Below, one piece after another: positions 49,381-61,622 of a DNA stretch of 64,000 bases. The stretch lies in assembly GCA_031291645.1 (NCBI GenBank), contig JARLIQ010000063.1:1-64000 (forward strand), written 5' to 3'. Every line of letters begins with the position of its first letter. The stretch's first letter is position 1. Below the pieces are notes generated by a model. It saw only the letters and a list, made by a program, of their open reading frames with translations, was not told the origin of the DNA and searched no databases. The translations under genes were made by a program, and so were the position numbers. Origin of the DNA: Caulobacteraceae bacterium. GTDB taxonomy: Bacteria; Pseudomonadota; Alphaproteobacteria; Caulobacterales; Caulobacteraceae.

Positions 49381-50925
49381 TCAGCCGACGGCCCGCTCCC
49401 GGCCACGCCAGAAGCGCTCGCGGATCTCGGCCTTGACCACCTTGCCAGCCGGGCTGCGCGGAAGAGCGCGCCAGATCTCCACCGACTTGGGCGCATGGAC
49501 CGGCCCGAGGCGTTCGCGCACGAGCGCGATGACATCCTCGGGCGCCAACACGGCGCCGAGCTTCAGCTCCACCACCGCCTTGACCGCCTCGCCCCATTTC
49601 GGGTCCGGCACGCCGATCACCGCGCAGTCCAGCACCGACGGATGCTCCAGGATCACCTGCTCGACCTCGGCGGAGAAGACGTTGAAGCCGCCGGTGATGA
49701 TCATGTCCTTGGCGCGATCGACGATGTAGACGAAGCCCGCCTCATCCTGGAAGCCGACGTCGCCGGTGCGCCGCCAGCCGTCGCTCGTGATCGCCGCGGT
49801 CGCCTCGGGGGCGCCGTCGTAGCCCACCATGGTCAGATTACCCCGCGCGACGATCTCGCCGCGCTGGCCAGCCCCTAGCATGGCGCCGTCCGAACCCATG
49901 ACGCCCAGCCGCGTCGCCAGCGTAGAGCGGCCGCAACTCGACCACCTCGCCTCCGGCCCAGCGGCCAAATCGCAGGTCGACAGGAAGGTCAGGAACATCG
50001 GCGCCTCGGCCTGGCCGTAGCACTGGCACACCACCGGCCCGAACACCGCCATCGCCTCGCGCAACTTGGCCGGCGAGATCGGCGACGCCGCAATCACCAG
50101 GTATCGCAGCGAACTGAAGTCGCGCTCGCGCACCCCGGGATGGTCGAGCAAGCCGTAGACCACGGTCGGCGGCAGATAGAGGTGGGTGATCCTGTGGCGC
50201 TCGATCGCCTCCAGAATCAGGTCCGGGCTGGGCTTCTTCAGGATGACGTTGGTGGCTCCGCCCGCGATGGCGCAAAGCGCCAGCACGCCGGCCGCATGGG
50301 TCATCGGCCCGGCCACCAGGTGAACGGGCGGCTCGGGCGACGGCAGGCATTGCCAGAAGGCGCCGACCAGCGTCTCCCAGGTCTGCAGGCTCCACAGTGC
50401 GGCCTTGGAAAGGCCGGTCGTGCCGCCGGTGGGGAACAGGCTGGCGATGATGTCCGCCCCGTCAGGCGGCTCGGGGGCGGGCGGGTAGTCGCCCGCGGCG
50501 AACCGCTCCAGCGACGGCGATCCGCCGGAGCCTTCCCGGTCGAGGCAGACCGTCAGACCAGGCGCCGCCAGCACCGGCGCCAGGGCCAGCGCTTCGGCCT
50601 CCAGGCTGGAATGGTAGAACAGCGCCTGGCACCGCGACAGGCCGAGCCAGTGACGGTTCGCCGCCTCGCTGTTGCGCGCGTTGATCGGGGTCCAGACCGC
50701 GCCGAGCCGGAAGGCCGCCAGTATGGCGACAAAGGCGGCTGGATCGTTGGGACTGAAGACGCCGATCCGGTCGCCGGCCTTCAGGCCCGCCGCGGCCAGG
50801 GCGGAGGCCAGGGCCTCGACACGCGCGTCAGCCTCGGCCCAGGAGACGACGCCGGTCTCGTCGGCGAAGGCCGCTCGCGCGGGGCCATGCCTCAGGCCCC
50901 GCTTGAAATAGTCGATGACGCGCAC
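49381..50925 (-). CDS. AMP-dependent acyl/aryl-CoA ligase
   Basis: The 514-residue ligase starts at GTG 50925, 11 bp after the cupin gene. Adenylation motifs are present: FPTGGTTGLSKA (P-loop, a variant), YGQAE (A5), GWRRTGD (A7), DRAKDMIITGGFNVFSAEVE (hinge) and PRSPAGKVVK with the catalytic Lys near the end. It should activate a carboxylic acid as its CoA thioester. It is the last gene of a receptor-FAH-cupin-ligase operon, so the acid is probably a catabolic intermediate. Confidence 0.93.
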   Translation of the reverse strand: MRVIDYFKRGLRHGPARAAFADETGVVSWAEADARVEALASALAAAGLKAGDRIGVFSPNDPAAFVAILAAFRLGAVWTPINARNSEAANRHWLGLSRCQALFYHSSLEAEALALAPVLAAPGLTVCLDREGSGGSPSLERFAAGDYPPAPEPPDGADIIASLFPTGGTTGLSKAALWSLQTWETLVGAFWQCLPSPEPPVHLVAGPMTHAAGVLALCAIAGGATNVILKKPSPDLILEAIERHRITHLYLPPTVVYGLLDHPGVRERDFSSLRYLVIAASPISPAKLREAMAVFGPVVCQCYGQAEAPMFLTFLSTCDLAAGPEARWSSCGRSTLATRLGVMGSDGAMLGAGQRGEIVARGNLTMVGYDGAPEATAAITSDGWRRTGDVGFQDEAGFVYIVDRAKDMIITGGFNVFSAEVEQVILEHPSVLDCAVIGVPDPKWGEAVKAVVELKLGAVLAPEDVIALVRERLGPVHAPKSVEIWRALPRSPAGKVVKAEIRERFWRGRERAVG

Positions 50926-50936
50926 GGCCGGCCGGC

Positions 50937-51470
50937 TCAGGCGGCCGGATGGGCGTCGACCAGGATCGCCGCCATGACGCAGGGGACCTGGCCGCGATTG
51001 CTCCAGGCGTGCTTGGTCCCGCGCTGGACGATGCAGTCCCCGGGGCGCAGCAGCATCTCGCCATCCTCCATGATCATGTGCATCTCGCCGGAGATGACCA
51101 CGAGATAGTCCACCGAGTCCGTGGCGTGCATGCTGGCGTGCTTGGCGCTGTCCTCGGCGGTCGGGACCCGGGCGCTGCCCAGTTCGGCGAACGCCGCGGC
51201 GGTGTCGATCGTCGTCTTCGACTCCGGCGGAATCTCGACCACGCGGAAGATCGTGCCGCCGGGCGTCGGGTCGTGACGGATCGGCCGCGCGCCGCGGTCG
51301 ACCAGGCCGGTGTTGTCGACCGGAATTTCCTCGGTCACCCAGATCTCGGTCACCCGCGAGCCGGGCCAGGCGGCGCTGTCGAGCACATTGGGCGCGTCGC
51401 CGACGAAGGTGATGTTCGAGCGGCCCTGGGCGTCGTGCCCGGTGACGATACGGCGGATGGCTTGAGGCAT
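50937..51470 (-). CDS. cupin-domain protein
   Basis: The 177-residue protein has a C-terminal cupin barrel: SVDYLVVISGEMHMIMEDGE (motif 1 region; the usual His pair is not conserved) and RPGDCIVQRGTKHAWSN (motif 2, with one His). With few metal ligands it may bind a ligand or act as a weak dioxygenase or isomerase; the reaction is unknown. It sits between the FAH-family hydrolase and the CoA ligase and is probably co-transcribed. Confidence 0.85.
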   Translation of the reverse strand: MPQAIRRIVTGHDAQGRSNITFVGDAPNVLDSAAWPGSRVTEIWVTEEIPVDNTGLVDRGARPIRHDPTPGGTIFRVVEIPPESKTTIDTAAAFAELGSARVPTAEDSAKHASMHATDSVDYLVVISGEMHMIMEDGEMLLRPGDCIVQRGTKHAWSNRGQVPCVMAAILVDAHPAA

Positions 51471-51497: not shown

Positions 51498-52478
51498 TTA
51501 CGCGGGCCGGCCGACGACCCGGTTGCGCAGGACGCCGATGTTCTCGATCTCGAGCTCGACGAGGTCCCCGATCGCCAGCCGCCGTCCCAGCTCGAACCCG
51601 CAGCCCGAAGCGACCGTGCCCGAGCCGATCACTTCGCCGGCGCGCAGGGTCTTGCGCCGGCTGAACTGGACCACGGCGTCCTCGAAGCTGTGGTGCATGG
51701 TCGAGGTCGAGCCGCGCGACCATTCCTCGCCGTTGACGCGCGCGGTCATGGTCAGGGCGTAGGGATCGTCGAACTCGTCCGGGGTGGCGATGCAGGGCCC
51801 AAGGCCGTTGCCGTTGTCGAAGTCCTTGCCTTCGCCCGGTCCGAGCCGGGCGTCCATGACCGGGATCTGGACGTCGCGGGCCGACCAGTCGTTGAAGATG
51901 GTCAGGCCGAAGATGTGGTCGCGCGCGCGGTCCTGAGTGATATCGCTCCCGGTGCGCCCGATCACGCAGGCCCACTCCAGCTCGTAGTCGATCCAGTCGG
52001 AATAATCCGGCCAGACGATGTCGACCTCCGGTCCGCTGACCGCCAAGTGGTTGCTGTTGTAGTAGACCACCTGCTGCTTGAAGATCGGCTTGAGGTCGTA
52101 CTGGCCGCTGGCCATCAGCCCTTCGAACGCCGCCTCGGGGTCGGGTTCCTGAGCCGCCAGGTTGCGGGCCATCTGCACCAGCGCCTTTTCCATGTGCTCC
52201 AGGAACAGGCTGCAGTCGCGCAGCCGGATCGGCTTGGGCAGGGGCGCCAGCAGCCTCGCCTCGCCCGAGACCATGGCCTCGTCGGGACGCTTGGCGATAA
52301 CCGTGCGCGCCTCGTCCCAGGCTCCGTCGCCGGCGTCGATCAGCGCCTGCATCGAGGCGAAGGCCGCCCCGCCGCCGCCGAGGCGTTCGCACGCCCCGGC
52401 CAGGTCCAACACGCCCCCGCCGGGCGCCATCGCCCCCAGCCGGGGGCCGCTCTCGGCCTGATAGGTGACCAGTTTCAT
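51498..52478 (-). CDS. fumarylacetoacetase-family hydrolase 1
   Basis: The 326-residue protein shows the FAH fold: DYELEWACVIGRTGSDITQ near 163, with metal-binding Glu residues, FGLTIFNDWSARDVQ and KDFDNGNGLGP near 215. The family cleaves C-C bonds of acylpyruvates or isomerises and decarboxylates ring-fission products of aromatics. It follows a TonB receptor gene by 34 bp and precedes a cupin gene on the same strand. A second FAH member lies at 54850, so two steps of one pathway are likely. Confidence 0.92.
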   Translation of the reverse strand: MKLVTYQAESGPRLGAMAPGGGVLDLAGACERLGGGGAAFASMQALIDAGDGAWDEARTVIAKRPDEAMVSGEARLLAPLPKPIRLRDCSLFLEHMEKALVQMARNLAAQEPDPEAAFEGLMASGQYDLKPIFKQQVVYYNSNHLAVSGPEVDIVWPDYSDWIDYELEWACVIGRTGSDITQDRARDHIFGLTIFNDWSARDVQIPVMDARLGPGEGKDFDNGNGLGPCIATPDEFDDPYALTMTARVNGEEWSRGSTSTMHHSFEDAVVQFSRRKTLRAGEVIGSGTVASGCGFELGRRLAIGDLVELEIENIGVLRNRVVGRPA

Positions 52479-52512: not shown

Positions 52513-54684
52513 TCAATGGAACTTGACGTTCAGCGTGGCGCCGTAGGTCATCGGATCACCCGGCACGGCCAGGCCGGTCCCGCTGGCCACCGCGATGTTG
52601 CGGTAGTAGTGGGTGTCACCGAGGTTCTTGCCCCAGAACGCCACGCTCCAGTCGCCGCGCGCCGGCGTATAGGTGACGCGGGCGTTGGCCAGGCCGTAGC
52701 CGGGCTGATAGAGGCCGGCGGTGCGGGTATTGGCCGCGTCGAAGAACTCCTGGGCCTGGTAGGTGTACTCGGCGCGCACCGCGAGGCCCGCGCCCTGCGG
52801 CAAGTCGAAGTCGTATTCGGCGCTGTAGCTGCCGGTGAAATCCGGCGAGCGGAGCTGTTCGCGACCGGCGTAGCTCGCAGCGCCGTTCTGGTACTTCAGG
52901 AATCGCGCCTTCTGGTAGGTCATGCTGGCGTCCAGGCTGAGGCCGTGCACCGGCTTGGCGCTCAAGGTGACGTCCACCCCGTCAGCGCGCGTGGCGCCGG
53001 CGTTGTCGATGGTCTGGAGCGCCGGGCCGGTGATCCGCAGGATCTGTTGGTTGGTGATGTCCTGGCGGAAGACGGCGATATCGGCCAGCAGGCGATGGTC
53101 GAACCATTCGCTCTTCAGGCCCACCTCGTAGGCCTTCACGTTCTCGGGCTGGAACGGCTTGTTGGCGACCGCCGCCGTGCTGGGCAGGAGGGTCTGGAAG
53201 CCGCCGCTCTTGTAGCCCTGGCGATAGGACACATAGGTCAGGATGTCCGGCGTCAGCTTGAAGTTCAGCGACGCGGACGGATCGAACGAACTCCACTGAG
53301 CGTGAGGGTCGACGCTGAACGGCGAGGCCGCCAGGAAGCCCTTCACCTCGCGCTGATCGCGCTTGTCGTCGATCGAATAGCGGCCGCCGGCCGTCAGGCT
53401 GAGCTGGTCGGTGAAATCGTAGGTCGCCTGGCCGAACAGCGCATAGGCGTCGGAGGTGATGACGGAATCGTCGGTCGCGGTGTGGTTCTCGACGACGGCC
53501 GTGGGGAAGGCCGGGCCGGCCTTCAACACCCAGTTGTCGGTCACCCGGCCATGGTAATAGTAGAAGCCGCCGATCCACCGCCAGCGGGCCGCCTGGCCTG
53601 CAAGCCGCACCTCCTGGCTGAAGGTCTCGTCGCGTTCGTGGGTCGCAAGAACGTAGGAGTCGGCGATCGTCGCGTCCTGGTCCTGCAGCCGGTCGAACAG
53701 GTTCGAGCGCAGGGCGGTGATCGAGGTGATGGTCCCGACGGGGGTCTTCCACTCCAGCCGGCCGGTCAGGTCGCCCAGGGTCTGATGCTCGAACCCGTCG
53801 ACGTTGTAGTAGTGCTTGTAGAAGCTCTCGCCCGGCGGCAGGGCGGCGATGGCCGCCGGACTGAGCAGGCCGGACTTGTTGGCCGAGGCGATGAACTGGT
53901 TGGTCATGCCATCGCGGGCCTGCAGGCCGTCGGCGGTCAGCAGGAAGGTGACCGTGTCGCCCACGTATTCGATCTGGGCGCGGCCGCCATAGCTCTCGAT
54001 CCGGCCCGGGTCGGGCCCGCCGGCCAGGTTCTTGGTGAAGCCGTCGCGGTGGCGGTAGCCGAGCGCGAGCCGGTAGAGCCAGTGGTCGTCCTTGTCGAGC
54101 GGGCCTGTCACCCCGACGCGGGCGGTGTAGTCGCCATAGTCGCCCACCTCGGCGTCCAGCGTGCCGCCGAACACCGGCGACGGACGCTTGGTGGTGACGC
54201 TGATCGCGCCGGACGCGGCGTTGCGGCCGAACAGGGCGCCCTGCGGGCCCTTCAGCACCTCGACGTGGTCGATGTCGAACAGGTCGAACTGCAGGCCGGC
54301 GGTTCCGCCGATGTAGACCTCGTCGACGAAGTAGGCGACGCTCGGATCGGAGCCGGCGTCGATCTGGTTGGTGCCGCCGCCGCGCAGATAGGTGTAGCTG
54401 ACGAACCCGGCGCCCACCGCCGAGATGGTCAGGCCCGGCGCAAAATGCTGCAGGTCGTCGATGTTGGTGACGCCCGACTTGGCTAGGGTCGCGCCCGACA
54501 GGGCGTTGATCGAGATCGGCACGGCCTGGACGTTCTCTGCCCGCTTTTGGGCGGTGACCACCACGGCCTCGACTTCGTCTGCCGCCTGAGCGGGGGCCGG
54601 GGCCGCCGCCTGCGACTCGCCACCGGTGACGGTTGCGGCAAGAACCACAAGACTCGCGCCGAGCATAAGCAAATCAATACGCAT
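52513..54684 (-). CDS. TonB-dependent outer-membrane receptor
   Basis: The 723-residue receptor has a hydrophobic signal region (about residues 5-28, ending GGESQAAA), a TonB-box segment EAVVVTAQKRAENVQAVPI, a plug domain with VEVLKGPQGALFGRNAASG and a barrel ending NVKFH (C-terminal aromatic His variant). GGAGG lies 5 nt before the ATG. It opens the receptor-FAH-cupin-ligase operon. The palindrome at 54816 is just upstream of its promoter, so it probably imports the compound degraded by this cluster. Confidence 0.94.
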   Translation of the reverse strand: MRIDLLMLGASLVVLAATVTGGESQAAAPAPAQAADEVEAVVVTAQKRAENVQAVPISINALSGATLAKSGVTNIDDLQHFAPGLTISAVGAGFVSYTYLRGGGTNQIDAGSDPSVAYFVDEVYIGGTAGLQFDLFDIDHVEVLKGPQGALFGRNAASGAISVTTKRPSPVFGGTLDAEVGDYGDYTARVGVTGPLDKDDHWLYRLALGYRHRDGFTKNLAGGPDPGRIESYGGRAQIEYVGDTVTFLLTADGLQARDGMTNQFIASANKSGLLSPAAIAALPPGESFYKHYYNVDGFEHQTLGDLTGRLEWKTPVGTITSITALRSNLFDRLQDQDATIADSYVLATHERDETFSQEVRLAGQAARWRWIGGFYYYHGRVTDNWVLKAGPAFPTAVVENHTATDDSVITSDAYALFGQATYDFTDQLSLTAGGRYSIDDKRDQREVKGFLAASPFSVDPHAQWSSFDPSASLNFKLTPDILTYVSYRQGYKSGGFQTLLPSTAAVANKPFQPENVKAYEVGLKSEWFDHRLLADIAVFRQDITNQQILRITGPALQTIDNAGATRADGVDVTLSAKPVHGLSLDASMTYQKARFLKYQNGAASYAGREQLRSPDFTGSYSAEYDFDLPQGAGLAVRAEYTYQAQEFFDAANTRTAGLYQPGYGLANARVTYTPARGDWSVAFWGKNLGDTHYYRNIAVASGTGLAVPGDPMTYGATLNVKFH

Positions 54685-54778: not shown

Positions 54779-54833
54779 CGTATCATTTTCATTGTCGGCG
54801 GTGACAAGCTGCGAATATGGACACTCGTCCACA
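54779..54833 (-). promoter_or_regulatory. promoter with GGAC-N2-TCGTCC operator, receptor operon
   Basis: The operator TATGGACACTCGTCCACA (54816-54833) matches 15 of 18 bases of the perfect palindrome at 56934. Its lower edge is 8 bp from a -35-like TTGTCA (54802-54807, minus strand), with a weak -10 near 54779-54784. A site just upstream of -35 is typical of activator sites. Confidence 0.6.
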
Positions 54834-54849
54834 CCGCGCCTCGCCACAG

Positions 54850-55785
54850 CTAATCGACGTCCTGGAAGACGACACGATTTCGCAACCGGCCCAGACCCGA
54901 AACCTCCATTTCGATGACGTCGCCGTGCGCCAGCGGCTGGCCGTACTCCAGGCCGCTGCCGCCGCCCACCGTGCCGGAGGCGAAGAACTCGCCAGCGTGC
55001 AGCGTCTCGTCGCGCGAAGCGTGGACGATGATGTCGACGAAGCTGTGCATCATGTCGCGGCTGGAGCCTCGACAGCGCTCCTGCCCGTTCACGCTCACCG
55101 TCATGGTCAGGTTCCCCGGATCGGGAATCTCGTCGGCGGTGACCAGCCAGGGGCCCATGACGTTGCCGGTGTCGAAGTCCTTGCCCTTGGACGGGCCGAG
55201 CATGGCCGGCATCTCGCGGTACTGCTGGTCCCGCGCGCTGACGTCGTTGTAGATGCAGTAGCCGAAGATGTGCGAGGCGGCGTCCGCTGGCGAGATGTTC
55301 TTGCCCGACCGGCCCAGGAAAACCCCGAACTCCAGTTCGTAGTCGAGCCATTGGCAGTAGCGCGGCCGAACGATGTCCACCCCCGTGCCGACGACGCTGA
55401 ACCGGTTCGGCTTGTAATAGACGGGGATGTCCTTGAACACGTTCGAGAGCACGCCGGGCATGCTGGCCGCCGCTTCGCCCAGCACCAGATGCTTGTTGGC
55501 GCGCGCCTGCAGCAGGTGCTTCTCGAACGTCAGGCAGTCGTACATCTGCTGGGGCACCGGCACCGGCGCCAGAAGGCGGACCGTCTCCAGCGGCTTGACC
55601 ACGACCGGCCGCTCGACCAGCGCCCTCGCCTCCTCCAGCGCGGGCGCCCCGCCGTCGATCAGCGACAGCATGTCCTCGAAATGGCGCGCCGCGCTGGCGG
55701 CGGTGAAGTCCGCGATGGCGGACTCTCCGGGCAGCATGGCGCCGATGTGGGCGCCGTCGTCGGTCGCAAAGGTGACGAGTTTCAC
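54850..55785 (-). CDS. fumarylacetoacetase-family hydrolase 2
   Basis: The 311-residue protein begins at GTG 55785 with GGAGA upstream. Family signatures are DYELEFGVFLGRSGKNIS near 150, FGYCIYNDVSARDQQ near 175 and KGKDFDTGNVMGP near 200. It resembles the FAH protein at 51498 but is clearly distinct. It is 60 bp after the metallo-hydrolase gene on the same strand, so the two form a short operon. Reaction on a 2-oxo or 1,3-diketo intermediate is inferred from the family. Confidence 0.92.
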   Translation of the reverse strand: MKLVTFATDDGAHIGAMLPGESAIADFTAASAARHFEDMLSLIDGGAPALEEARALVERPVVVKPLETVRLLAPVPVPQQMYDCLTFEKHLLQARANKHLVLGEAAASMPGVLSNVFKDIPVYYKPNRFSVVGTGVDIVRPRYCQWLDYELEFGVFLGRSGKNISPADAASHIFGYCIYNDVSARDQQYREMPAMLGPSKGKDFDTGNVMGPWLVTADEIPDPGNLTMTVSVNGQERCRGSSRDMMHSFVDIIVHASRDETLHAGEFFASGTVGGGSGLEYGQPLAHGDVIEMEVSGLGRLRNRVVFQDVD

Positions 55786-55845
55786 CGGTCGGTCTCTCCG
55801 CTTCGGTTCGGATGGGCGCCTCGGCCCGATCCCGGGCCGGGACGT

Positions 55846-56856
55846 CTAATGCCTGTGATTGGGATCGCCGCAGCCGCAGGCTGCGGTCGCCGCCGCGCGG
55901 CGGGTCTCCCGCGTCTTGTAGTAGCGGGCCATCAGGGCCCAGAGCTCCTCGCGCGGGACGACGGGGCGGGTTCCGCTGAGTTCGCCCCAGATCTCCATGA
56001 CGTTGGGCACCATCCGTTCGGCGTCGCCCCAATTCTCGAAGTCGCCCATGGCGATATCGAACGCCGCGTCCAGGCAGTTCATGCCGGCGTCATAGCGCTT
56101 CTTGGTCTCGTCCCAGACGTACTGCAGGTAGGCCTTGAACTCGCGCACCGCCGCCTTGCCGACGATCGGACCGTGCCCGGGCACGATCACCTCCACGTCC
56201 CAGCTCAGGATCAGGTCGCAGGCCTTGATCCAGTTGGCGACGGGCCCCGCCCAGATCGCCGGATGGGCGCCGGCGAACAGGATGTCGCCGGTGTAGACCA
56301 CCTTGTCCTTCGGGGAGTGGATCAGGATGTCGCTCTTGGTGTGCGCCGGGCCGACATCGATCAGCCGGATATCCTTGTCGCCCACCTTCAGGTCCAGGGC
56401 GCCCTCGAAGGTGTCGGTGGCGTGGGTGATGGTGATGCCGTGGAAGTCGAAGGCGCCGAACACCTGGCGCATGAAGGCGCCGCCCTCGCCCCACTCACGC
56501 CAGCGGTCGAGCATGTCCGCCAGCACCGCCGGGGGCACGTGCTCCATGTCGTCGTCGACAGCCTTGGTGGTCAGGATGCGCGCGCCCTTCACCAGCTCGT
56601 TGCCGTAGGTGTGGTCGCCGTTCGAGTGGGTGTTGACCAGGGTCCCGATCTGCTTGGCGGCCGGCACGGCGTCGCCCATCGTCTGGAGCATTTCCGCCGT
56701 CAACTTCAGATCAAACAGCGTATCGACAAGTAAAGCCTCGCCGCTGTCTTCGATCAGGCCGGCGTTGCTCCAGCCCCAGCTCCCATCCGGCAGGATATAA
56801 CCCCAACAGCCACCGCCGAGATCCTGCAATCCCTTGTTGAATCCCCAGCGCGGCAT
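55846..56856 (-). CDS. metallo-beta-lactamase-fold hydrolase
   Basis: From the ATG at 56856 (GGTGGA upstream) the protein has 336 residues and no signal peptide. The binuclear metal site is visible: THSNGDHTYGNE near 125 (HxNxDH type), GPAHTKSD near 202 (His), GDILFAG near 222 (Asp) and VPGHGPI near 255 (His). The C-terminus has a CGCGDPNHRH tail. The fold hydrolyses thioesters, lactones or ring-cleavage products. It is divergent from the MFS gene, with the palindrome at 56934 between them. Confidence 0.92.
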   Translation of the reverse strand: MPRWGFNKGLQDLGGGCWGYILPDGSWGWSNAGLIEDSGEALLVDTLFDLKLTAEMLQTMGDAVPAAKQIGTLVNTHSNGDHTYGNELVKGARILTTKAVDDDMEHVPPAVLADMLDRWREWGEGGAFMRQVFGAFDFHGITITHATDTFEGALDLKVGDKDIRLIDVGPAHTKSDILIHSPKDKVVYTGDILFAGAHPAIWAGPVANWIKACDLILSWDVEVIVPGHGPIVGKAAVREFKAYLQYVWDETKKRYDAGMNCLDAAFDIAMGDFENWGDAERMVPNVMEIWGELSGTRPVVPREELWALMARYYKTRETRRAAATAACGCGDPNHRH

Positions 56857-56897
56857 GCTTCCACCAATATAAGAACTATTGTTGATTTGCGGGCCGA

Positions 56898-56951
56898 ACG
56901 GTAGCGGGCCGCCGGGGGCCGGCAAGTCTCGAATGTGGACGATCGTCCACA
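56898..56951. promoter_or_regulatory. divergent promoter region with perfect 18-bp palindrome
   Basis: TGTGGACGATCGTCCACA at 56934-56951 is a perfect palindrome. For the metallo-hydrolase gene it lies 8 bp upstream of TTGCCG (56920-56925), which is 16 bp from TACCGT (56898-56903). The MFS gene starts 103 bp to the other side, so both genes may be controlled from this site. Confidence 0.7.
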
Positions 56952-57053
56952 GCCGCCCCGCTGGGCGTAGGGCTTTCGGCTTGCTAAGGCGGCGCCCGCA
57001 CAAGACGGTGGGTCGTGGCGAAGGCCGCCCGCAGACAGTTTGAGAGAGCCGCC

Positions 57054-58439
57054 ATGACCTCGGAAACGGCCAGGCCCGTCGGCTATCCGACGCGCCGCGA
57101 TGCATACTACGTGGCGTTCATCGTCTTCACGGCGACGGCCTTCTCCTTCCTCGACCGGCAGGTCCTCGCCATTCTGGTCGACCCGATCCGCCACGATCTG
57201 CAGGTGTCCGACACCCGGATGAGCCTGCTGTACGGATTCGCCTTCGTGATCCTCTATTCGACGCTGGGCCTGCCCATCGGCCGGCTGATCGACCGGAGCC
57301 AGCGCCGGCTGATCCTCGCCGCCGGGGTGGCGACCTGGAGCGTGATGACCATCGCCTGCGGCCTGGCGCACGACTACTGGACGCTGTTCGCCGCACGCAT
57401 CGGCGTCGGCGTCGGGGAGGCCTGCCTGACGCCGGCCGCCTGTTCGTTGCTGGCCGACTGTTTCGAGCCGCGCGTCCGCGGGCGGGCCATGAGCGTCTAT
57501 CTCTTGGGCGTCTATGTCGGCCTCGGCCTTTCGATGGCCGTCGGCGGAGCCTTGTACGAGGCCCTGCGGCGGGGCGTTCACCTGCCCTTCATCGGCGCCC
57601 TGGCGCCCTGGCGCGCAGTGTTCGTGCTGATCGGCGCGCCCGGCCTGCTGATCGCCGCCCTGGCGCCGACCATGCGCGAGCCGCCGCGGCAGGACCTGGC
57701 GGCCGCGACCGGCGGCGGCGCGCCGGCCGATGACGCGAACCCTGGCCTTGTGCGCTATCTGCGGCTCAACGCCTCGACCATCGCCACGGCGCTGGCGGCC
57801 CACGGGTTGCTCGCCTTCGTCAGCTACGCCCTGATGGGCTGGGCGCCGAGCGTGCTGGTGCGCCAGTTCCACCAGCCGCGCGCCGCTGTCGGCCTGACCC
57901 TGGGCGTCCTGTCGCTGGTCGGCGGGGTCGTGGGCGCGCTCTGGGGCTCGATCGTCTCCGATCGCTGGACAGCGCAGGGGATGACCGCGGCCAAGTTCAG
58001 GGTCTGCGCGATCGGTGCGGGCTTCGCAGCGGTCGGCCTCACCATCCTGCCGTTCGCGACAGCGGCCTGGACAGCCTTCGCCGCCATCACCCTCTGTCTG
58101 ACCGCCCTGCCCTTCGCGTCCGCGAGCGGCCAGACCATGGTGCAGGAGTTGTTCCCCAACCGCTTGCGCGGTCAGGGCTCGGCGATGATGGTGCTGCTGA
58201 TGGGCCTGTTCGGCGCCGGCGGCGGCCCGCTCGCGGTCGGGCTGCTGAGCGACACCCTGCTGCGCCGGCAGGGACTATCCGTCGCCATCGTCTCAACGGG
58301 CCTGCCCGCGGCCATCGCGGTGCTCCTGCTCTATCTCCTCGGACGCGACGCCTATGAAGCCGCGCGCCGGCGCGTGAAGCGGCAGGCCGAACCTACGGCG
58401 CCGTCCGGTCTGCTCACGCCGCGGTCGCACCCCGCCTGA
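57054..58439 (+). CDS. MFS transporter, spinster-like
   Basis: From the ATG at 57054 the protein has 461 residues and about 12 membrane helices. It has the spinster-family start TAFSFLDRQVLAILVDPI near residue 30, the loop-2/3 motif GRLIDRSQRRLIL near 84 and a GVGVGEACLTPAACSLLADCF helix near 120. It should carry an organic anion or aromatic compound by proton symport across the inner membrane. It is divergent from the metallo-hydrolase gene with a shared operator. The TetR gene overlaps its 3' end by 26 bp tail to tail. Confidence 0.93.
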   Translation: MTSETARPVGYPTRRDAYYVAFIVFTATAFSFLDRQVLAILVDPIRHDLQVSDTRMSLLYGFAFVILYSTLGLPIGRLIDRSQRRLILAAGVATWSVMTIACGLAHDYWTLFAARIGVGVGEACLTPAACSLLADCFEPRVRGRAMSVYLLGVYVGLGLSMAVGGALYEALRRGVHLPFIGALAPWRAVFVLIGAPGLLIAALAPTMREPPRQDLAAATGGGAPADDANPGLVRYLRLNASTIATALAAHGLLAFVSYALMGWAPSVLVRQFHQPRAAVGLTLGVLSLVGGVVGALWGSIVSDRWTAQGMTAAKFRVCAIGAGFAAVGLTILPFATAAWTAFAAITLCLTALPFASASGQTMVQELFPNRLRGQGSAMMVLLMGLFGAGGGPLAVGLLSDTLLRRQGLSVAIVSTGLPAAIAVLLLYLLGRDAYEAARRRVKRQAEPTAPSGLLTPRSHPA

Positions 58440-59100
58440 GGCCGGGCTTGCGGGCGGCCCGGTCCACGAGGCCCTGCATGCCGCTGACGGCGAATTCGAC
58501 CAGGTATTCGACGATCTCCTCGGGGTCGTCGTCCGGGGAGCCGACGACCTCGTCGTAGCGGTTGTCCATGATCTCCCACGAATAGAGCGCCCCCACGACG
58601 AAGGAGAAGCCCCAGACCGCCTCGGATTTGGTCAGGGTCGGGCAGACGCCGCGGACGCTGTCGATCCAGCGCCGCAGGGAATCGGCGGTGTTGCTGCGGC
58701 GCCTGAGCTCGACCTTGACGTCGGGCGGCGCGCTGACCCATCGCCGCAACAGGTTAGGCAGCCGCCGGTCCGCTTCGGTTGTGCTGCGGGCGCGATCGAC
58801 GATCGGCTTGACCAGGGCGAAGACGATGTCGCGAAGGTCGGCGGGGCCTCCCTTGGCGGCGATCCGCGCCGCCAGCAGCGCGCTGCGCTCGACCTCGATC
58901 TCGCGCCAGAGCTGGGATGCGACCGCAACGAAAAGATCGCTCTTGGTCCCGAAGTACATGTTGATGGCGCTGAGCGGGGTGCGCGCGCCGGCGGCGATGT
59001 CGCGCAGCGAAGCGCCCTCGTAGCCAACCTGGGAAAACACCGTGGTGGCGCTTTCCAGGAGGGCGGTGATCGTCTCGCCTTTCGAGCTCCGTCTGGCCAT
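58414..59100 (-). CDS. TetR family regulator
   Basis: From the ATG at 59100 (GGAG upstream) the protein has 228 residues. A TetR DNA-binding domain (LLESATTVFSQVGYEGASLRDIAAGARTPLSAINMYFGTKSDLF) lies at residues 12-57, and the rest is a TetR_C-type helical domain. It is downstream of the carboxymuconolactone-decarboxylase-like gene on the same strand (83 bp), whose promoter carries a copy of the shared palindrome. It is one candidate to bind that palindrome. Confidence 0.92.
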   Translation of the reverse strand: MARRSSKGETITALLESATTVFSQVGYEGASLRDIAAGARTPLSAINMYFGTKSDLFVAVASQLWREIEVERSALLAARIAAKGGPADLRDIVFALVKPIVDRARSTTEADRRLPNLLRRWVSAPPDVKVELRRRSNTADSLRRWIDSVRGVCPTLTKSEAVWGFSFVVGALYSWEIMDNRYDEVVGSPDDDPEEIVEYLVEFAVSGMQGLVDRAARKPGLRRGATAA

Positions 59101-59183
59101 GGCTGGCTGCTCCAGCGCCGGCGGTCCAGCCGCCGCCAACAACTGAGCCCTTATTGGCCCCTCCACGGCCCGGGGAGAAGCCC

Positions 59184-59744
59184 TCACCCGACCCTCTCCC
59201 CGACTGACGCGTTTTCGGGCTCGACCCCCAACCCTACGAGCACGCGGGAGACCATGTTGTAGGATGCGATCACCATCAACAGCTCGAGGAATTCGTCCGG
59301 GTCAGGAAAGGCCTGCCTGACCGCGGCCAGGGTCGCCTCGCCGATCCGCACGTCGCGCGTGCTGTCGCGCGCCATGGCCAGCACCGCCCGCTCGGCCGGC
59401 CCGAACAGCGCCGTGTCCTTCGACGCCGCCTCGATGTCGACAAGCGCCTCGACCTGGCCCGGCGCGCCGCCGGCGGCCACGAACGGCCCGATGTGATGGT
59501 TGAACTCGTAGTCAGCGCCGTTCAGCCTGGCCACCGCGCAGATGGCGAGTTCCCGGTGCAGCGGCGACAACCGGTAGCCCTTTCGCACGCGTGAGAACAG
59601 GTGCGCCCAGCCCTCGGCCAGCGGCGGGCTGTGCAGCAGCATGCGGTCGAGGTTCAGCAGGCGTCCGCCCCGACGCTCCCGCGTCGCCGCCGCGACCCGT
59701 TCCGCCTCGCCGTCGAACTCGGTCCGATAGGGAATATTCGGCAT
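59184..59744 (-). CDS. carboxymuconolactone decarboxylase-like protein
   Basis: The 186-residue protein (ATG at 59744, GGAG 4 nt upstream) is helical with the family core RELAICAVARLNGADYEFNHHIG near residue 65. The usual redox CxxC of AhpD relatives is absent; His residues after the Glu remain. CMD enzymes act in protocatechuate/beta-ketoadipate degradation, but many homologues have unknown roles. Association with the TetR gene and FAH genes suggests catabolic use. Confidence 0.88.
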   Translation of the reverse strand: MPNIPYRTEFDGEAERVAAATRERRGGRLLNLDRMLLHSPPLAEGWAHLFSRVRKGYRLSPLHRELAICAVARLNGADYEFNHHIGPFVAAGGAPGQVEALVDIEAASKDTALFGPAERAVLAMARDSTRDVRIGEATLAAVRQAFPDPDEFLELLMVIASYNMVSRVLVGLGVEPENASVGERVG

Positions 59745-59797
59745 GATGCTCCTCACCTGCATTTTTGCCCGCATGCTGTGAGGGTGCGCCGGCGAGG

Positions 59798-59829
59798 ATA
59801 CAAGTAAGGTCTTGGGACGCTCGTCCTGG
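59798..59829 (-). promoter_or_regulatory. third GGAC-N2-TCGTCC site, CMD-like/TetR operon
   Basis: TTGGGACGCTCGTCCTGG (59812-59829) keeps the GGAC-N2-TCGTCC core (12 of 18 bases of the perfect site). It again lies 8 bp upstream of a -35-like TTGTAT (59798-59803, minus). The -10 is weak. Arm matches are poorer than in the other two copies. Confidence 0.45.
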
Positions 59830-60678: not shown

Positions 60679-60714
60679 ATTTCGATATGTGGAAAAGTAT
60701 TCGACTATCGAAAT
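60679..60714. promoter_or_regulatory. inverted repeat in the IclR/hydrolase divergent region
   Basis: ATTTCGATA (60679-60687) and TATCGAAAT (60706-60714) are perfect inverted arms. The inner TTCGA-CTA-TCGAA (60700-60712) resembles sites of aromatic-catabolic IclR regulators such as PcaU/PcaR (GTTCGATAATCGCAC, recalled). It overlaps an upstream ATG at 60687, which argues for a later IclR start. Confidence 0.5.
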
Positions 60715-60764: not shown

Positions 60765-61622
60765 ATGGACAGGATTTCGGAAAGCGAAAGTCTGGAGCGT
60801 GATTTCGATATGGATAGCGACGAAGAAAAGCACGCGGACTCCGAATATCTGTCGACGCTGGAACGCGGCCTGTCGGTGCTGCGGGCCTTCGGGCGCGAAA
60901 ATCCGCAGATGACGCTGAGCGAGGTGGCGGAGGTGACGAGCCTGTCGCCAGCGGCGGCGCGGCGCTGTCTCAACACCCTGGTCAAGCTCGGCTACGTGGC
61001 CAAGTACCACCGACACTTCCTGCTGCGGCCGGAGGTGATGAGTTTCGCCTCGGCCTATCTCGACTCGATGAGCCTCGGCGAACTGGTGCGGCCGCACCTG
61101 CAGGCGGTGCGCGACGAGACGGGGGACAGCTCGTCCCTGGCGGTGCTCAGCGGGCAGGACATCCTTTACCTGGTGCACGTCTCCACCAACCGGATGGTGC
61201 GGCTGGCGGCGGGCATCGGGACGCGCTTTCCCGCCTACGCCACTTCGCTCGGCCGCGCGATCCTGGCGTTCGAGGACCCCGAGGTCAGGATGCGCTACCT
61301 CGACACCTGCAACCTGACCACCTTCACCGAGCACACCGTCTCTTCGCGCGGCGAGTTGCAGGAGGTGCTGTCCCAGGTGCGGCGCGACGGCTATTCGGCG
61401 GTCAAGGACGAACTCGACTATGGGCTGATCTCCATCGCGACGCCGATCCTGGATGACAGCGGCCGGGCGATGGCCGCGATCAACTGCTCGACCTCGACCT
61501 CGCGCGTCGGGCTGGACGAACTGGTGCGCACCCGCCTGCCGATCCTGCACAATGCGGCGCGCCATATCGAGGCGGCCCTGCGCCGCCAGCCCTTCCTGCT
61601 GAGGTCCGTGCATTCGAACTGA
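60765..61622 (+). CDS. IclR family transcriptional regulator
   Basis: The protein (about 285 residues from ATG 60765; ATG 60810 is an alternative) has the PcaR-like start STLERGLSVLRAFG, a winged helix (MTLSEVAEVTSLSPAAARRCLNTLVKLGYV) and the effector domain with DTCNLTTFTEHTV and LISIATPILDDSGRAMAAINCS. IclR proteins of this subgroup regulate aromatic-acid catabolism. It is divergent from the alpha/beta hydrolase, with an inverted repeat between. Confidence 0.94.
   Translation: MDRISESESLERDFDMDSDEEKHADSEYLSTLERGLSVLRAFGRENPQMTLSEVAEVTSLSPAAARRCLNTLVKLGYVAKYHRHFLLRPEVMSFASAYLDSMSLGELVRPHLQAVRDETGDSSSLAVLSGQDILYLVHVSTNRMVRLAAGIGTRFPAYATSLGRAILAFEDPEVRMRYLDTCNLTTFTEHTVSSRGELQEVLSQVRRDGYSAVKDELDYGLISIATPILDDSGRAMAAINCSTSTSRVGLDELVRTRLPILHNAARHIEAALRRQPFLLRSVHSN

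Follow-up and report, generated by a model that had tools for sequence, protein, structure and literature searches.

Regulators of the TetR family are some of the most common in bacteria. A gene for a protein of this family lies within a catabolic gene cluster in a 64,000-nucleotide stretch of the genome of a Caulobacteraceae bacterium (GenBank assembly GCA_031291645.1, contig JARLIQ010000063.1, positions 1 to 64,000; hereafter the window). The same cluster contains three palindromes placed at one fixed distance from -35-like boxes. Together these probably constitute a new regulon and a new operator for a known regulator family; in the spellings that we searched, the palindrome turned up in two of the papers covered, neither of which, judging by its title, deals with a TetR operator.

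When the profile of the window TetR was compared with solved structures, the best match was 2fbq (E 2.5e-16, full length), followed by NicR2; in a fold comparison, NicR2 was closest (Z 20.6, 206 residues, rmsd 2.4), with Z 16.8 for 2fbq and 15.2 for SmcR. We take 2fbq (PA3006) to be PsrA, the TetR-family regulator of Pseudomonas. PsrA recognizes the site GAAAC-N4-GTTTC (C/GAAAC-N2-4-GTTTG/C), activates rpoS and represses its own gene (PMC13104628). The operator layout of two 5-bp half-sites with a 4-bp gap (5-4-5) is common to both systems, but the PsrA half-sites read GAAAC and those of the window TGGAC, so the spacing fits a PsrA operator and the letters do not. The two proteins are about 24% identical, and the window TetR reaches 50.9 bits against the PsrA model NCBIfam NF053516, below its curated cut-off of 300. 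Whereas PsrA is a broad regulator that senses fatty-acid status, the window TetR looks confined to one catabolic cluster. In this respect it resembles NicR2 (structures 5fgl/5fhp, 24% identity), the local regulator of a nicotine degradation cluster. LuxR, HapR and SmcR of Vibrio share the TetR fold, and activation as well as repression has been proven for them; according to the 2008 LuxR paper, no mechanism had by then been described for activation by TetR proteins (PMC2628434). In contrast to the few sites of the window with their single exact register, these global quorum-sensing regulators have many variably placed sites. In the IclR family, PcaR, PcaU and PobR regulate clusters for aromatic compounds; the IclR protein encoded beside the window cluster is close to this type, but the consensus of the type is unlike the palindromes.

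Palindromes and their spacing

The sites (s1 to s3) and their putative promoter elements are listed below, with equivalents in two genomes of other genera, G668 (locus L038) and G719 (locus L039).

54816..54833, minus strand: s1, candidate operator upstream of the TonB-dependent receptor operon; equivalents L038:7571 (G668) and L039:11446 (G719)
54802..54807, minus strand: -35-like box TTGTCA of s1, 8 bp from the 18-mer, in a putative promoter
54780-54785, minus strand: candidate -10 box TGATAC of s1, 16 bp past the -35-like box
56934..56951, no strand assigned: s2, candidate operator between the divergent metallo-hydrolase and MFS genes; equivalent L038:9655 (G668)
56920..56925, minus strand: -35-like box TTGCCG of s2, in a putative promoter
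56898-56903, minus strand: candidate -10 box TACCGT of s2, kept in G668
59812..59829, minus strand: s3, weaker and putatively autoregulatory candidate operator upstream of the operon for TetR and a carboxymuconolactone-decarboxylase-like (CMD) protein; equivalent L038:12519 (G668)
59798..59803, minus strand: -35-like box TTGTAT of s3, in a putative promoter

The central site, s2 (TGTGGACGATCGTCCACA), is a perfect palindrome, while s1 (TATGGACACTCGTCCACA) and s3 (TTGGGACGCTCGTCCTGG) match at 15/18 and 12/18 positions, respectively. On the gene strand, they read TGTGGACGAGTGTCCATA-ttcgcagc-TTGTCA upstream of the receptor operon (s1), TGTGGACGATCGTCCACA-ttcgagac-TTGCCG upstream of the metallo-hydrolase operon (s2) and CCAGGACGAGCGTCCCAA-gaccttac-TTGTAT upstream of the CMD-TetR operon (s3). 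In all three cases, the minus strand has the 18-mer, then exactly 8 bp, then a TTG hexamer; measured from the 12-bp core GGAC-N4-GTCC, the same gap is 11 bp, and the common gene-strand pattern is GGACGA[GT][CT]GTCC-N11-TTGNNN. A recount returned the coordinates, match counts and 8-bp gap given in a first-pass annotation of the window. By palindrome sequence alone, s3 is weak (position weight matrix score 15.3, against 13.8 for the best unrelated site in the window); its support comes from the geometry and the equivalent G668 site.

With up to three mismatches allowed, the window contains two copies of the palindrome, compared with 0.04 expected from shuffled windows. The search of the 4.4-Mb genome that had been proposed in the first-pass annotation yielded exactly three perfect matches to GGACGNNYGTCC-N11-TTG, namely s1, s2 and s3, all in the cluster. 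Allowing two mismatches gave 218 matches genome-wide versus 338 for the reversed control, and because the count falls below the control, these looser matches are background. In seven genomes that lack this TetR, GGAC-N4-GTCC-N11-TTG occurred nine times in 29.7 Mb; at that background, the probability of three matches within 5 kb is ~6e-10, or ~5e-7 after correction for the number of 5-kb windows. The other GGAC-N4-GTCC occurrences in the window (3553, 21968 and 44009) do not have the site-plus-TTG geometry. A genome-wide regulon was considered and rejected, as the remaining full GGACGNNCGTCC palindromes sit inside mechanically called open reading frames and none has TTG at offset 11. Across the family, there was mostly one pattern match per genome, similar to the reversed control, with some recurring near-identical strings.

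Related clusters were sought via the metallo-hydrolase, which is present in 6 of 390 genomes of the same family, the window's own included. G668 possesses nearly the entire cluster in syntenic order, with identities of 76% for TetR, 73% for CMD, 70% for MFS, 85% for the metallo-hydrolase, 88% for FAH1, 57% for the receptor, 73% for FAH2, 87% for the cupin protein and 71% for the ligase. Its palindromes at L038:7571 (receptor), 9655 (metallo-hydrolase/MFS), 12519 (CMD-TetR) and 796 each have TTG at N11, on both flanks in the case of the divergent site 9655, and five of the six pattern matches in this genome fall inside the 12-kb cluster. The shorter cluster of G719 encodes TetR, metallo-hydrolase, FAH1, receptor, MFS, cupin and ligase, all in one direction; one palindrome lies upstream of the receptor gene with TTG, another upstream of the metallo-hydrolase gene with TCG instead of TTG. 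In pairwise alignments of window and G668 promoters, the palindrome core and CAAG (the reverse of CTTG) are conserved, and the nine sites of the three genomes combined give the palindrome TGGAC-N4-GTCCA. On gene-facing sides, TTG stands at offset 11 in 9 of 10 cases, whereas the 59 remaining offsets together yield 4 TTG; on gene-free sides, offset 11 never has TTG. Because equivalent sites share ancestry, these counts depend partly on one another, while the three sites within one genome serve different promoters. The conservation of the geometry in two other genomes supports the earlier suggestion that a single factor serves the receptor, metallo-hydrolase and CMD-TetR operons.

The fourth G668 palindrome (L038:796, G668:C37:50795) has TTGCCA at N11 and TACATT 16 bp further on. 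It faces a gene for a second TetR paralogue (41% identity with the window protein) on the antisense strand and, beyond that gene, the FAH2-cupin-ligase operon.

The TetR protein and its proposed action

The window TetR scores 39.9 bits with Pfam TetR_N (cut-off 24), as expected of an N-terminal helix-turn-helix, and 38.3 bits with TetR_C_30 (cut-off 26.3), an all-helical ligand-binding and dimerization domain; its AlphaFold2 model is all-helical (pLDDT 83). This TetR group occurs in 3 of the 390 family genomes, the same three that have clustered sites, and no regulator other than TetR is found in all three clusters. Pfam scans of the flanking genes revealed no other regulator family common to G668 and G719: one has LacI and the other an HTH_3 protein. 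Spaced sites are confined to this cluster in the window genome, which favours a local regulator, and they follow the TetR group across three genera. Judging from the sequences, the local TetR (58414-59100) is most likely the factor at s1 to s3, because it is the only regulator that the clusters share, the IclR protein has no counterparts there and the operator of PsrA has the same layout.

No further orthologues of this TetR were found in 385 genomes of the class, 359 of the phylum (neither sample being exhaustive) or viral contigs. A wider contig search returned only a distant Nonomuraea protein (35% identity over 86 residues), and a plasmid search no orthologue, with at most 33% identity among the matches listed. 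The metallo-hydrolase loci of the three other family genomes (L040-L042, ~50% identical) have neither a TetR profile match nor GGAC-N4-GTCC, and three plasmid loci (Novosphingobium, Pseudosulfitobacter and Neorhizobium) have no site. In the Novosphingobium locus, a TetR is encoded next to the metallo-hydrolase, but it is no more than a distant relative (25% identity over 85 residues). That catabolic cluster (L047, NZ_CP039697.1, plasmid of Novosphingobium sp. EMRT-2) encodes a receptor, a VOC protein, an FAD oxidoreductase, two FAH proteins, a metallo-hydrolase and an MFS transporter; it has a different TetR and no palindrome, and its pathway is apparently of the same kind but controlled by another regulator.

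In Caulobacter, the -35 element of RpoD promoters has the form TTGNCNS (PMC8144410). The palindromes lie wholly upstream of the -35-like boxes, overlap neither these nor the -10 boxes and keep a fixed distance on 9 of 10 sides, as is expected of activator sites; the -10 boxes of the putative promoters are weak. A promoter spacer of 16 bp was assumed, in line with TACCGT at that position in both metallo-hydrolase promoters (window and G668), and with this spacer the operator centre falls at about -51.5. The classical activator position is -41.5, and -51.5 lies about one helical turn further upstream.

We infer activation from the rigid distance that the sites keep to the -35 box downstream of them, together with the weak -10 boxes; binding by TetR, its ligand and the transcription starts are likewise part of a proposed scheme. 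We regard it as fairly probable that the palindromes are operators of the local TetR and that this protein activates the three operons. A TetR dimer would sit on TGGAC-N4-GTCCA beside the -35 box, always in the same register and ~51.5 bp upstream of the transcription start, and would recruit or stabilize RNA polymerase at these weak promoters, the trigger probably being a substrate or intermediate of the pathway. The receptor-FAH2-cupin-ligase operon would be turned on from s1, the metallo-hydrolase-FAH1 operon from s2 and, by autoregulation, the CMD-TetR operon from s3. We consider evenly balanced the more specific proposal of a TetR activator that serves a single catabolic cluster under a constraint of geometry, works with the housekeeping polymerase as a single dimer at about -51.5 in exact register and is able to drive both divergent promoters from one palindrome. 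The MFS gene had also been put forward as a target. However, the MFS-facing side of s2 (window 56952-57054) has GCTGGG and no TTG at the 11-bp position, where the G668 equivalent has TTGCGG, so that control of this gene with the same geometry appears doubtful in the window genome and likelier in G668; in the former, the gene may have lost, or never gained, control via s2.

Alternative factors and modes of action

Several observations weigh against activation by TetR. Most characterized TetR proteins repress, NicR2, the nearest by fold (Z 20.6), is a catabolic repressor, and tetR belongs to the gene pair behind s3, so the protein could be an ordinary repressor that a pathway metabolite releases, hindering the polymerase just upstream of the -35 box at a distance that is steric or inherited. 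PsrA, too, represses its own gene, but its repressor site overlaps the start region, from -18 to +20 (PMC13104628), whereas none of the sites described here overlaps the -35 box, all of them being upstream of it. Occlusion, moreover, needs neither a single exact distance at three promoters nor TTG on both sides of a divergent site, and we judge repression to be rather unlikely. Of the first-pass proposal of a common activator, the common factor stands, and the choice of activation over repression is a reading of the geometry. The comparison also covers three genomes whose equivalent sites are not independent, owing to common ancestry, and one G719 site has TCG where TTG is expected. The TTG may, furthermore, be a further protein contact within an enlarged operator and not a -35 box, or a factor encoded elsewhere may bind the palindromes, given that binding by the local TetR is deduced from co-occurrence and that s3 is a weak palindrome. 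These two options, which we consider improbable taken together, are at odds with the asymmetric, gene-side position of TTG, unlike part of a symmetrical operator, and with the restriction of spaced sites to this cluster, where they track the TetR group across three genera.

The first-pass annotation had named the local IclR protein beside TetR as a candidate. Its gene adjoins the cluster, and it scores 264.1 bits against the PcaR/PcaU/PobR model (cut-off 284.75), a subfamily with activators, so it might bind the palindromes and activate the cluster, much as PcaU and PobR activate their own pathways. However, no counterpart was found at E 1e-25 in G668 or G719, although both carry sites. The IclR group-1 consensus is GKTYCRY-W3-4-RYGRAMC, and the sites of the PcaR/PcaU/PobR subfamily are of the form TCGATWATCG, with the consensus WWWRKTCGATWATCGSAYRRW and the like (PMC8222616); the nine palindromes, with GGAC-N4-GTCC, do not fit the group-1 consensus. 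A fitting sequence, TTCGACTATCGAA, lies upstream of iclR itself (60700-60712), with a TTTCGATA box at 60680 and a further box, TTTCGATATG, at 60803-60812. The IclR protein, whose role at s1 to s3 we consider very remote and reject, probably acts at its own promoter region, as these motifs suggest. By itself, a match to TTCGANNNTCGAA is unremarkable (with one mismatch allowed, 1.5 are expected per window), and the perfect match before iclR was the only one found. Located between an alpha/beta hydrolase gene and iclR, the boxes form a candidate three-box site of PcaR/PcaU type, resembling those reported for PcaU.

Genes of the cluster and their proposed regulation

The genes of the cluster are as follows.

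49381..50925 (start approximate), minus strand: AMP-dependent acyl-CoA-ligase-like protein, s1 operon
50937..51470, minus strand: cupin-domain protein, s1 operon
51498..52478, minus strand: FAH-family hydrolase FAH2, s1 operon
52513..54684, minus strand: TonB-dependent receptor, first gene of the s1 operon
54850..55785, minus strand: FAH-family hydrolase FAH1, second gene of the s2 operon; Pfam FAA_hydrolase, 188 bits
55846..56856, minus strand: metallo-beta-lactamase-fold hydrolase, first gene of the s2 operon; Pfam Lactamase_B, 72.8 bits
57054..58439, plus strand: MFS transporter divergent from the s2 operon, doubtful target; Pfam MFS_1, 144.2 bits
58414..59100, minus strand: TetR-family regulator, proposed binding protein, in all three motif-bearing clusters; start set by aligning relatives
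59184..59744, minus strand: CMD protein, first gene of the s3 operon; Pfam CMD, 32.3 bits

For the CMD protein, the mechanical reading frame start at 59774 is too early, and the start shared with G668 (MPNIPYRTEF) is at 59744. The ligase-like protein is 71% identical to L038:3448-4989 and 34% identical to a Pfam AMP-binding protein of G719 (L039:15121-17061). The gene content suggests a pathway with uptake through the outer membrane, then activation with CoA and the hydrolysis of a product like those of ring cleavage.

The sites, their geometry, its conservation and the co-occurrence with the TetR group are direct observations, and it is the exact register that lifts this case above the ordinary. 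The motif gives an uncharacterized uptake-and-degradation cluster a regulator and a set of co-regulated genes, which helps to narrow down its substrate. Because operator and -35 box in this small regulon are spaced to the exact base pair, mutants with altered spacing offer a direct test of activation by a TetR protein and, if the proposed mechanism is true, the cluster would provide a compact model for activation by TetR proteins.

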